Assembly (NCBI RefSeq): GCF_000236705.1
Contig: NC_016599.1
Location: forward strand, 1,736,001-1,800,000
Origin: Owenweeksia hongkongensis DSM 17368
Lineage (GTDB): Bacteria; Bacteroidota; Bacteroidia; Flavobacteriales; Schleiferiaceae
Reading direction: 5' to 3'
DNA length: 64,000 bases
Position numbers and translations under genes: made by a program
Shown here: in pieces, positions 44,403 through 47,567 of the stretch
How positions within the stretch are numbered: position 1 is the first letter of the stretch
Layout of the letters: the number at the start of each line of letters is the position of its first letter
Notes under the pieces: model-generated
Databases searched by the model: none
Told to the model about the DNA's origin: nothing
The model's input: the letters and a program-made list of their open reading frames with translations, nothing else

Positions 44403-44780
44403 ATGGACTCTCTAAAAATATTGATCCATTCCCTTGAAGGAACTGAAATTAACAATATTCACATTGACATCAATCGAAATCTGATTCAGATTAGCACCCA
44501 AAGTTCTGAACATGAAAGCCACTCAATTACATTTGATAGTATTCTTCGATTAAATTATTTGCCTGACTTCACAGACCCTGGTACTTTGTTAATTATCGAT
44601 ATTGAATATGATTTCGATATAGTCGAGAATCTCGCAAAAAAACACCTAACACTTTGGCCGGAAGGCTCTCCTGCGTTGGCTAAATTTAATTTTGAGCAAG
44701 CACATAGAATACGAATGTTATCTGCCGATTTCGAACTAGAAGTGTATTGTCTAAACATAATCGAAAACACCCATGATTGA
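44403..44780 (+). CDS. Protein of unknown function, 125 residues
   Basis: Acidic protein without signal peptide or membrane helix, starting [20 protein letters not shown]. It has alternating strands ([30 protein letters not shown]) and a C-terminal helix-strand ([18 protein letters not shown]). I do not recognise the family. Its last 8 bp overlap the start of the threonine aldolase gene, so it is likely cotranslated with it. Confidence 0.65.
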
Positions 44781-45789
44781 TTTACGCTCCGATACTGTAA
44801 CCCGTCCAACGAAAGAAATGCTAAATACTATGATACACGCTCCCGTTGGTGATGATGTTTTTGGTGAAGACCCTACCATCAATAAGTTGGAGGCTATGGC
44901 CGCAGAAATGTTTGGAATGGAAGCTGGCCTATTTTGCCCAAGCGGAACCATGACGAATCAGATTGCGATAAAGCTGCACACTCAGCCAGGCGATGAAATT
45001 ATTTGTCATGAGTATTCACATATCTACAATTATGAAGGAGGTGGCTTGGCAGCAAATTCTGGTTGCCAAACCAGATTACTGAAGGGTGACCGGGGTTTTA
45101 TTTCCGCAGAAGAGGTGGCCGCCAACATTGGCAATCCTCATGATGTACATGCTGCACGTACTTCAATGGTTTCTGTAGAAAACACCGTCAACAAAGGTGG
45201 TGGAAGCTGCTATGAGCTTTCCACTTTGGAAGCTATTGGCAAAGTTGCCCGCGCCAACAATTTGGCCTATCACATTGACGGAGCACGAATTTTCAATGCT
45301 TTAGTTGCCAAAAATCAAAATGCGAAAGATTACGGAAAACTGTTTGACACCATTTCAATTTGCCTTTCTAAAGGATTGGGTTGCCCGGTAGGTTCTTTGC
45401 TTTTAGGTTCAAAAGAACACATCATGCAAGCACGGAGAATACGTAAGCGATTTGGTGGGGGAATGCGCCAAGCTGGGTATTTGGCTGCGGCCGGAATCTA
45501 TGCTTTAAAAAATCATATTGACCGCTTGGCAGAAGATCACGAGAAAGCACAGGTACTAAAGTCAGCTTTAGAAAAATGCTCTTGGGTAGATCGCATTGAG
45601 CCGGTAGAAACCAACATTGTGATTTTTTATTTGAAGGAGGGCTTAGAGCAAGATGCATTTATGGGAATGCTCAAAGAAAATGGTATTTTGGCAGTAGGGA
45701 TGGGTCAAGGCAAATTGCGATTTGTTACCCACCTTGACATAAGTTCAACTCAAATCTCTCAAGTAGCCAATGTTTTGGAAAATATTTAA
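44773..45789 (+). CDS. ltaE: Low-specificity L-threonine aldolase (PLP enzyme)
   Basis: 338 residues. Starts [16 protein letters not shown], the family signature, followed by [10 protein letters not shown], then the PLP-binding His region [24 protein letters not shown] with the cofactor Asp, and the Schiff-base lysine in [14 protein letters not shown]. It cleaves L-threonine or L-allo-threonine to glycine and acetaldehyde. Its 3' end overlaps the porP-like gene by 20 bp and its 5' end the unknown gene by 8 bp. The acetaldehyde product could feed the aldehyde dehydrogenase and acs elsewhere in this window. Confidence 0.94.
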
Positions 45790-46720
45790 GGCTCCCGTTT
45801 TATTGATTAGCGCCATCTTGATTTCCTTTTATGGTCATGCTCAGCAGGACGAGATGGCAATTTCCAATTTTCCCGTTTTAGAAGATTTTTCTACAAACCC
45901 TGCTTTATTTGGATACTGGCAAACGCCTTCTTTTGGAATAATCTATAATGGCGGTCTTGAGAAGCATCAATTTCCAAACAATCAAACCACACTATTTTAT
46001 AATCAAGGAAACGAAACAAACGGCTTTGGTGCTGAATTCAGCCGAAAGGCTCAAGGATACAGCACACAATCCAATTTCAAACTTGGTTATTCGCGAAGTG
46101 GCACTGTAAGCAAAAGCTTAAAATGGAGGGCTGGTGGAGCGATAAAGTATGCTCATATAAAAAACGATTATGAGTCGTTACTTTTCCCAGATCAAATTGA
46201 TCCTTATTATGGATTTGTTCTTGAATCCAGCGAAGGTTTGAGTAACAACTCTCCATCATCATTTGTAACCGCAGAGTTTGGGGCCTCGCTCCAGTACCAT
46301 AAACTGATGGTAAATATTCATGGTGAAAATATTGCCCCGATTTTGCTCTCTGGTGAAGATGATCAAAAAGCAGAATTCTTCAGTTCCCGCTCTTATGATT
46401 ACCTCCCCGCCACTTTAAGAGTAAATGCTGTTTACCAATTTACTTTTGCTAATGATTTCTTTCTTAGCCCTGGTTTTCAAATAAATTCTGATTTTTCAAA
46501 ACCCAATCCTGTTTCGAGCGCTTTGGTAAACTTTCAATGGCGCAGCATAGTGATGGCAAATTACAGCTACTCCTCCAATGGTATGGTGAAATTTATGGCA
46601 GGCGGCAGAATAAAAGATAAACTAAGCCTCACTGCCGGTGCTTCCATTTATAGTGACAATAAAATTACAGGATACACGGACCGTATCTTTTATCATTTTT
46701 CAATTTTCACTCAGCTATAA
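45770..46720 (+). CDS. PorP/SprF-family type IX secretion membrane protein
   Basis: 316 residues. Signal peptide to about residue 25 (LLISAILISFYGHAQQ). The mature start EMAISNFPVLEDFSTNPALFGYW is a divergent version of the PorP/SprF opening (usually ...NPAxAG). The rest alternates amphipathic strands and ends IFYHFSIFTQL, as in outer-membrane barrels. SprF-like proteins are needed for export of specific cargo bearing type B sorting domains. The next gene, 2 bp downstream, encodes just such a domain, so the two probably work together. The gene overlaps the aldolase gene by 20 bp. Confidence 0.85.
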   Translation: MFWKIFKAPVLLISAILISFYGHAQQDEMAISNFPVLEDFSTNPALFGYWQTPSFGIIYNGGLEKHQFPNNQTTLFYNQGNETNGFGAEFSRKAQGYSTQSNFKLGYSRSGTVSKSLKWRAGGAIKYAHIKNDYESLLFPDQIDPYYGFVLESSEGLSNNSPSSFVTAEFGASLQYHKLMVNIHGENIAPILLSGEDDQKAEFFSSRSYDYLPATLRVNAVYQFTFANDFFLSPGFQINSDFSKPNPVSSALVNFQWRSIVMANYSYSSNGMVKFMAGGRIKDKLSLTAGASIYSDNKITGYTDRIFYHFSIFTQL

Positions 46721-46722
46721 GT

Positions 46723-47094
46723 ATGACTCGTATTCTAAGCTTCCTTTTTTTAGTCACCGCATTGGTTAGCTGTATTGAGGCCAAAGATTCAACTGTAGCT
46801 CCGTATGGAATCTTTATTCCAAATGCTTTTTCACCTAATGGCGATGGAGTTAATGATATCCTAAAGCCGGTGTTTCCACCCAGTACACCACCTTTACAGA
46901 GCTATAACTTTGAAATTTATGATGGCGATTTGATTCAGGTTTTTAATACCACCGATACATCAAAAGCATGGGACGGCAAAAGTAGTAATGGCAAAACCTT
47001 GCCTGAAGCGACCTATTATTTCAATTTGAATGGCGAATACGTAACTGGAGAAAAGTATGAAGTTTCTGGAGGCATTGCTTTAATGAGACCTTAA
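46723..47094 (+). CDS. Mini-lipoprotein consisting almost only of a T9SS type B (gliding-type) sorting domain
   Basis: 123 residues. Lipoprotein signal with lipobox LVSC (Cys17). From residue 27 it is the type B C-terminal domain: IFIPNAFSPNGDGVNDILKP, then FEIYDGDLIQVFNT, AWDGKSSNGKTLPEATYYF and GGIALMRP. In other proteins this domain ends very long adhesins such as SprB. Here there is no cargo in front of it. It follows a PorP/SprF gene by 2 bp. It could be a structural plug, a chaperone-like partner, or a remnant of a larger protein. Its stop codon overlaps the convergent gene's stop (TTAA). Confidence 0.85.
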   Translation: MTRILSFLFLVTALVSCIEAKDSTVAPYGIFIPNAFSPNGDGVNDILKPVFPPSTPPLQSYNFEIYDGDLIQVFNTTDTSKAWDGKSSNGKTLPEATYYFNLNGEYVTGEKYEVSGGIALMRP

Positions 47095-47567
47095 AACACT
47101 ACTCCAAATCCTAATGAAGGCATTACACCAAATTCACCTGATTTTGGAATTGCCCCAGTAAGTCTTGCACGAAAGACGTAAAAACCTCCAAACTTACGTC
47201 TAAAAGTAAGGGGCAAACAAATCAACTCATAAGTACCAATCCTATATCCCAAACCAATACTGAGATTCATTTTTTCACTCTTGTTTAAAACAAAGTGGTA
47301 AATCATTTCGCCAGAAGCACCACTACTTTCACCGTCCAAATGATCTATTCCTACCCCGTAAGCTGCCTGATTGATTAAAAAACCAGTCTCTATTATATGC
47401 CTCTTATTCTTACCAATACAATAAGCATAATCAAGACTTACCTGCTTAATTCCTGCATTTAAGGTTATTTCATTGTGTCCATATTGAGCATGTGTTCCGC
47501 AAGCGTAGAGAAAACCAACAAGTATTATAGCAAGCTTAATGTTTGGGGTGAAAAGTGTAAGATTCAA
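47091..47567 (-). CDS. Small secreted, probably outer-membrane beta-barrel protein
   Basis: 158 residues. Signal peptide (LAIILVGFLYACGTHAQ). The mature part has short alternating strands (NEITLNAGIKQVSLDYAY, MNLSIGLGYRIGTYELI) and a terminal phenylalanine (GFGVVF), the pattern of an eight-stranded outer-membrane barrel. I do not recognise the exact family. It converges with the mini-lipoprotein gene and the two stop codons overlap within TTAA. Confidence 0.7.
   Translation of the reverse strand: MNLTLFTPNIKLAIILVGFLYACGTHAQYGHNEITLNAGIKQVSLDYAYCIGKNKRHIIETGFLINQAAYGVGIDHLDGESSGASGEMIYHFVLNKSEKMNLSIGLGYRIGTYELICLPLTFRRKFGGFYVFRARLTGAIPKSGEFGVMPSLGFGVVF

Follow-up and report, generated by a model that had tools for sequence, protein, structure and literature searches.

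The gene pair in the window

What does a type B sorting domain do when it carries no cargo, follows a lipobox and is encoded directly beside a PorP-like barrel? The question is raised by two genes in a 64,000-nucleotide stretch of the Owenweeksia hongkongensis DSM 17368 genome, a single contig of 4,000,057 bases; this stretch, at positions 1736001 to 1800000, is referred to as the window. The initial annotation had described a barrel ORF and a type B ORF 2 bp apart, and both ORFs and the 2-bp gap are present. The features of the pair are listed by their positions in the window.

45770 to 46720, + strand: PorP/SprF-like outer-membrane barrel with a signal peptide, 316 aa (PF11751 match, AlphaFold2/Foldseek)
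46721 to 46722, + strand: intergenic gap of 2 bp (ORF coordinates)
46723 to 47094, + strand: predicted lipoprotein, 123 aa, consisting of signal peptide, short linker and type B domain (profiles, AlphaFold2)
46723 to 46773, + strand: signal peptide with the lipobox LVSC (sequence reading, lipobox pattern)
46771 to 46773, + strand: codon of Cys17, the predicted lipidation site (sequence reading)
46813 to 47085, + strand: type B C-terminal domain, CHU_C / TIGR04131 (profile matches)
46918 to 46929, + strand: YDGD in place of the N/D-R-W-G of most type B domains (alignment)

The 123-aa protein scored 49.3 bits against PF13585 CHU_C (cut-off 27; residues 31 to 114) and 41.3 against the TIGR04131 type B sorting domain (cut-off 35; residues 32 to 121). 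Its N-terminus reads MTR-ILSFLFLVTA-LVSC, with the lipobox LVSC at residues 14 to 17; by this lipobox, placed after an n- and an h-region, the protein is a predicted lipoprotein. The predicted mature chain has 107 residues, of which 14 (17 to 30) lie ahead of the type B domain. Profiles and sequence reading therefore bear out the annotated build of lipobox, short linker and one type B domain with no cargo. The AlphaFold2 model had a mean pLDDT of 88.1, with ten-residue blocks at 90 or above from residue 31 onward, and its Foldseek matches were weak (streptococcal serine proteases, E 1.8e-4; PorZ 5m11, 2.4e-3; FlgD, 2.8e-3). The domain retains the FSPNGDGVND and WDG stretches; the R-W/F-G motif of T9SS type B substrates was not found in it. 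Also absent is the strict surface-export signal C-x-K-(D/E)2, the window protein reading C-I-E-A-K-D. In the available text of PMC5080379, this signal (LES) marks surface lipoproteins, the rule having been defined in Capnocytophaga, and other genera differ from it (SDDDD, SDDFE).

The barrel protein scored 46.5 bits against PF11751 PorP_SprF (cut-off 22.3) and 54.6 against NCBIfam TIGR03519, under the cut-off of 90.55 for that profile. The best Foldseek match of its AlphaFold2 model (mean pLDDT 74.9) was 8gl6_F, from a T9SS RemA-CTD complex (E 4.9e-8, query TM 0.59), followed by OmpG, FadL and other barrels. As modeled, the protein is an outer-membrane barrel of the FadL/PorV type. The barrel fold alone is not specific, because the 50 matches listed, of 209 at E 0.001 or better, were barrels of many kinds.

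The first 20 bases of the barrel ORF are shared with the end of a threonine-aldolase-like gene (44773 to 45789, Beta_elim_lyase); on the other side, the lipoprotein ORF and a convergent 158-aa ORF (47091 to 47567) share 4 bases at their ends. The homologue of this convergent ORF in the congener G001 was only 43% identical, and the other matched proteins around it in G001 were 79 to 99% identical. A recent gain of the pair, as judged by foreign composition, was considered and rejected, since the G+C contents of the two genes (0.386 and 0.390, against 0.404 for the window) give no signal.

Own genome and congeners

Twenty-six type B proteins of the O. hongkongensis genome scored over the cut-off. 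Among these, one had a clear lipobox (the window protein), one was ambiguous (C1:918462) and 22 had none, the N-termini of the remaining two (L018 and L025) being unreadable. Read from sequence, the combination of lipobox and type B domain is rare in this genome, and a cargo-free type B domain alone is not unique. Matches that might have been close relatives of the 123-aa protein in the genome contigs searched were eight long ordinary type B proteins and were discarded.

A second cargo-free type B protein of the same genome, about 141 aa long (G000:C1:3092345-3092566, L091), begins with an ordinary signal peptide. Cargo-free type B proteins with a signal peptide were also seen in 22 other genomes of the family (L066 to L088 without L071), and none of the 23 rows of this set has a lipobox, the count leaving out L071, L089 and L090 (contig ends) and the window. 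At L085, the only one of these loci on which Pfam was run, the cargo-free gene follows TonB-receptor, weakly PorV/FadL-like and NHL-repeat genes and precedes DUF2141 and S41-peptidase genes; several other loci show ORFs resembling these neighbors.

Two PorP genes of the own genome (L234, L236) each follow a long type B ORF, in the order cargo then PorP. Two others (L233, L235) adjoin genes that we take for GldK/L/M and GldJ; here and below, GldJ is our presumed name for the lipoprotein downstream of ordinary PorPs, and GldK/L/M for other neighbors of ordinary PorPs.

In three congeners, neither a PorP nor a type B gene was found between the aldolase gene and recX. The site was empty and its flanks were kept (RecX 67 to 91% identical, aldolase 71 to 88%), and no long-cargo ancestor is therefore seen at the locus. 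The pair is missing from G001 too, whose proteins are the most similar among the congeners, and it would therefore be simpler to assume that this lineage gained it than that it was lost repeatedly. Close orthologues of the barrel were found neither in 98 relatives (59 matched at E 0.001, the best besides the genome's own protein at 39.8 bits) nor in 395 genomes of the class (eight, including the own genome, matched at E 1e-6), and the plasmids searched gave no match. In the order, no second pair was found beside the 19 best other barrel matches (of 172 matching at E 1e-20 in 395 genomes); each of these 19 is followed by a GldJ-like lipoprotein and not by a type B ORF.

Recurrence of the pair in the class

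The seven other barrel matches in the class fell into two kinds. Three (in G245, G219 and G302) reached the second half of the barrel and were followed by a lipoprotein of 203 to 214 aa with a type B-like end, and the remaining four were of the GldJ-adjacent kind. A profile of four barrels, from the window and these three genomes, was searched in 395 class genomes, and 39 stretches were fetched, or 42 with the three seeds, as top matches and not as a random draw. In these 42 stretches, 17 of 45 barrels adjoined a small type B ORF and 28 had no such neighbor, as scored with a home-made type B profile that contains the window's own domain. A reverse search with a profile of the lipoproteins, signal peptide included, gave six new pairs, all with the family code f27. 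They came from 12 inspected matches among the 13 listed new ones with an ORF of <300 aa (all but G265:C144); the other six inspected (L292 to L297) were set aside as cut or longer type B ORFs or as signal-peptide type B proteins without a PorP.

In total, at least 24 pairs of a PorP-like barrel and a small lipoprotein-like protein with a terminal type B domain were identified, distributed over 22 genomes of the class that carry 10 family codes; the number is a lower bound, part of the profile matches having been inspected. The search for other short lipobox-plus-type-B proteins beside porP genes, which the initial annotation had proposed, was thus positive, and the pair is not unique to this species.

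The lipoprotein gene lies directly downstream of the barrel gene on the same strand in 23 of the 24 pairs, and in the remaining one (L180) the two genes are convergent. The two genes of a pair overlap by up to 16 bases or lie up to 3 bases apart, leaving out L178 and L184, with called starts too far upstream, and the convergent L180. The 17 first-found neighbors had been selected by barrel and type B domain only, and all 17 bear a lipobox, 12 read by script and 5 by eye (one of the latter, L178_3893, with the looser LPGC). With the window protein and the six later ones, a lipobox is found in all 24 small proteins. The window protein is the shortest, at 107 mature residues against 121 to 206 in the others. 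The strict C-x-K-(D/E)2 signal was found in 7/18 lipoproteins against 0/16 GldJ-like lipoproteins (p 0.008) and in 0/6 of the later ones, that is, in 7/24 overall, the window protein not among them. Lysine at position +3 was rejected as a discriminator from the GldJ-like proteins (14/18 against 9/16).

Several loci deviate from the simple arrangement. Tandem double barrel-lipoprotein pairs occur in G305 and G151 (L175, L178), and L178 holds one further type B ORF, cut by the end of the stretch and not of the pair kind. At L188 (G105), a 754-aa type B ORF is followed by a PorP and then by a type B lipoprotein, placing classical and new partners around one barrel. At L180 (G196), a 137-aa type B lipoprotein is convergent to a PorP of the other clade; neither its domain nor the barrel belongs to the main class, and the locus is perhaps an independent case. 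In the ORF lists, free pairs of different families showed no shared neighbor beyond the sigma loci described below. The open-licence papers listed, preprints excluded, gave no description of a lipoprotein with a type B CTD beside a PorP, nor of a PorP with ECF21 or an anti-sigma factor.

Domain class and barrel phylogeny

The motif R[WF]G was found in 0/23 readable lipoprotein domains and in 25/25 other type B domains of the own genome; L187, with its domain largely masked, was left out of this count, of the alignments and of the two-profile test. In a wider set of ordinary domains, the strict motif was present in 41/55 and the relaxed [RK][WFY]G in 53/55, against a single lipoprotein domain of the 23 (L185), where it lies outside the aligned place. 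Ordinary domains thus do not all have the strict motif, and beyond the own genome its loss is weak evidence when taken by itself; as read from the alignment, the loss in the lipoprotein domains is nevertheless telling. In L138, most of the NGDGxND stretch is lost as well.

In a leave-one-out test with two profiles, 22/23 lipoprotein domains favored the lipoprotein profile, as did 0/55 ordinary domains, a set of partly dependent rows with 22 related short proteins among them. The exception was L180, at -5.0 bits. The window's domain, left out of both models when scored, came out at +5.5 bits on the lipoprotein side, with L185 at +3.6 and the 20 others at +17.9 to +63.5; the ordinary range was -55.6 to -8.2. 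By this score, the window domain sides modestly with the lipoprotein class and outside the ordinary range. The C-terminus of the Aureispira grappling-hook protein (PDB 9flp) also matched the lipoprotein profile, in its type B part (E 1.5e-8). According to the available part of a 2025 paper, no type B CTD structure had been solved.

In a quick barrel tree, built without the two PorP fragments of L208, 23/24 paired barrels fell on one side of a branch with an SH-aLRT of 99.7 (no bootstrap), L180 again being the exception. No other row exceeds 22% identity to the window barrel, which sits on a very long branch. A position among ordinary PorPs was not rejected for it by the AU test (p 0.59), the likelihood even being 2.9 higher, and a descent shared with the other paired barrels is therefore only a candidate reading. 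The pair in the window has the adjacent barrel, the lipobox and the R-W/F-G-less domain of the pair module.

The barrel tails were compared for cysteine. A tail cysteine was found in 2/17 paired barrels, 29/32 others and 0/6 fusions (see below). This contrast is mostly with GldJ-adjacent PorPs, and it was not built on, nor the tail cysteine kept as a class marker, because the own-genome cargo shuttle L234 is also without one. The window barrel has no cysteine in its last 20 residues, and the Cys-x-Cys of SprF-type tails is absent from it. In SprF proper, that C-terminal-tail motif bonds to GldK in gliding, according to the available text of PMC12635249.

Barrel fusions beside sigma factor genes

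At seven loci (L184 in G399; L298 to L303 in six f27 genomes), the barrel forms the C-terminal part of a longer protein. Six of these fusions are complete, with 578 to 675 aa, and a masked stretch splits that of L298 in G251. Their N-terminal part is a region with one to several W motifs, to which no Pfam anti-sigma domain matched. A hydrophobic 19-residue stretch (Kyte-Doolittle mean 1.4 to 2.4) also precedes the barrel; in the six complete fusions it is accompanied by a polar tether (116 to 249 residues), and PF11751 matches their C-terminal part. An ECF-type sigma gene (Sigma70_r2 + Sigma70_r4_2) lies directly upstream in 7/7 loci, and a type B lipoprotein gene lies downstream of the fusion in each.

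The seven loci resemble the Dma (dual-membrane-spanning anti-sigma) system in their order of an ECF sigma gene, a gene for a protein with W-motif region, helix, tether and barrel, and one small gene. In the dma2 operon of Bacteroides thetaiotaomicron, as described in the available text of PMC13088901, a sigma gene and a spanning protein are accompanied by a small third gene, DUF4943 of unknown function. Unlike Dma, the loci have a PorP_SprF barrel, and a type B lipoprotein is encoded by their third gene; the ECF21 assignment and the anti-sigma role are putative. The Dma-like build suggests that the fused proteins may act as anti-sigma factors. Because the lipoprotein stayed beside the barrel where the barrel became part of such a presumed regulator, the two appear to work together. 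The Dma architecture (anti-sigma region, transmembrane segment, tether and upstream sigma gene) was not found in the window pair: its barrel begins with a signal peptide and follows the threonine-aldolase-like gene, and no sigma gene lies beside the pair. Both the sigma/anti-sigma link and the missing R-W/F-G motif became visible only with the relatives and were absent from the initial annotation.

Comparison with known systems

The pair is a variant of the type B CTD/PorP pairing, and the window holds its shortest example. In the available texts, PorP binds PG1035 and SprF binds SprB, PG1035 keeping its CTD and lying at the cell surface (PMC9143113), and CTD and shuttle form specific pairs with some crosstalk (PMC12618676). 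SprB-SprF, Fjoh_3952-Fjoh_3951 and PG1035-PorP all set a PorP-family barrel beside a type B domain, and the CTD is retained and bound by the cognate barrel (PMC9143113, PMC12618676). The window pair differs from the SprB-SprF type in having a lipobox in place of an ordinary signal peptide, no adhesin cargo, the barrel gene first and no R-W/F-G.

BamG-BamH offers another likeness. BamG, a FadL-type barrel of 14 strands, holds the surface lipoprotein BamH on its extracellular side; the families are other ones, and the available text gives BamH a carbohydrate-binding fold in place of a type B domain (PMC12611786). PorV with a type A CTD (8gl6) is close in fold: chain F of this entry, taken to be PorV from its length and the title, is the best match to the modeled window barrel; in contrast, the type A CTD is sorted, and mostly cleaved, by another route and belongs to a different family. 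The PorPs adjoining the presumed GldJ share the Pfam family of the window barrel. They are followed by a lipoprotein of about 470 to 530 aa without a type B domain, and a tail cysteine is usual in them.

Proposed role and alternatives

From the observed gene anatomy, its recurrence, the lipobox pattern, the domain class and the sigma/PorP fusion loci, together with the fold model, we infer lipidation, physical binding, the surface side and a role. On balance, by a little over even chances, the lipidated type B domain appears to be a fixed, cargo-free partner of its own PorP-like barrel. The two genes would encode one outer-membrane unit, with the PorP-like barrel as the partner. The small protein would be made with a lipoprotein signal and receive its lipid at Cys17, and the one type B domain in it would dock on the barrel and remain there. 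Held through its lipid as well as through the barrel, the domain would be the functional part and no longer a cargo label, and it would probably sit on the outer face, where the PorP-PG1035 and SprF-SprB contacts lie. The recognition between type B CTD and PorP would thereby be reused, the tag in the pair probably working as a lasting barrel partner and not as a shipping label. The least secure element of this mechanism is the membrane side, the strict LES being present in 7/24 lipoproteins and not in that of the window. Where the barrel is fused in the Dma-like manner, the lipoprotein would likely set or sense the state of the barrel and may be the sensor end, and the window copy, with no adjoining sigma gene, would be a free-standing unit. 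A tentative extension, possible though doubtful, is that a secretion tag has become a receptor subunit, the lipid-anchored domain acting as an outer sensor or gate of the PorP barrel. In some Bacteroidota, this barrel would be the outer end of a protein that spans both membranes and binds an ECF sigma factor, and a T9SS-type surface signal (e.g., real type B adhesins competing for the barrel) would thereby be reported to the genome; the Owenweeksia pair would then be the same receptor without the wire.

The protein might instead be an ordinary type B T9SS substrate that happens to have a lipoprotein signal, taken from SprA by its cognate PorP shuttle and held on the surface with the lipid as an extra anchor. 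Type B proteins and PorP/SprF shuttles are indeed cognate pairs and often neighbors in the available text of PMC12618676, and the window domain keeps FSPNGDGVND and WDG and scores over both the CHU_C and TIGR04131 cut-offs. However, the gene order is opposite to the common published one, with the shuttle downstream of its substrate (PMC12618676, available text), and to that of the genome's own cargo-then-PorP pairs L234 and L236. The R-W/F-G motif is missing, the relative L138 is without most of the NGDGxND stretch, and type B signals are given as 150 to 235 residues in the same source, against 107 mature residues here; a substrate role is considered unlikely. A periplasmic position, from which the lipoprotein would cap or tether the barrel on its inner side in the manner of PorE with PorP, is decidedly unlikely, although the window protein is without a strict surface-export signal, PorP has in PorE a lipoprotein partner located in the periplasm (PMC9143113, available text), and the polar tether of the Dma-like proteins would be periplasmic. 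Against it stand the surface location of PG1035 and of the adhesin SprB in that source, and the strict C-x-K-(D/E)2 of 7/18 lipoproteins against 0/16 GldJ-like ones (p 0.008), although with 0/6 in the later ones.

The initial annotation had offered an adaptor, a plug or a lipid-anchored decoy for the adjacent barrel. This is supported in part: the barrel is paired with a predicted lipid-anchored, cargo-free type B protein, plausibly its partner or cap, and the pairing recurs in 24 loci; the decoy has found no evidence of its own. As a decoy or plug, the anchored domain would occupy PorP or SprA and limit the secretion of other type B proteins, and the retention of a recognition domain without cargo would fit this. 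However, a barrel gene adjoins in 24/24 loci (17 of them found that way) and the domain class is unlike ordinary cargo; both favor a dedicated pair over competition and leave the decoy very improbable. That the gene is a truncated remnant of a longer cargo gene is barely credible. The window protein is shorter than all others of the set and adjoins a very divergent barrel, but reading frames and signal peptides are intact and the fold is confidently modeled. A long cargo gene in relatives, which the initial annotation had named as the sign of a remnant, was not found either: the site is empty in the three congeners, and the lipoproteins elsewhere are short too (121 to 206 mature residues).

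Type B CTDs are known as tags that take adhesins by way of the T9SS to a cognate barrel. That type B domains with a lipobox, no cargo and their own barrel form a recurrent class suggests a second use of this recognition pair, as a stable unit in the outer membrane. In the seven anti-sigma-like loci, this unit is a candidate outer subunit of dual-membrane-spanning sigma regulators. The small pairs would also be natural minimal systems for structures of type B CTD/PorP recognition.
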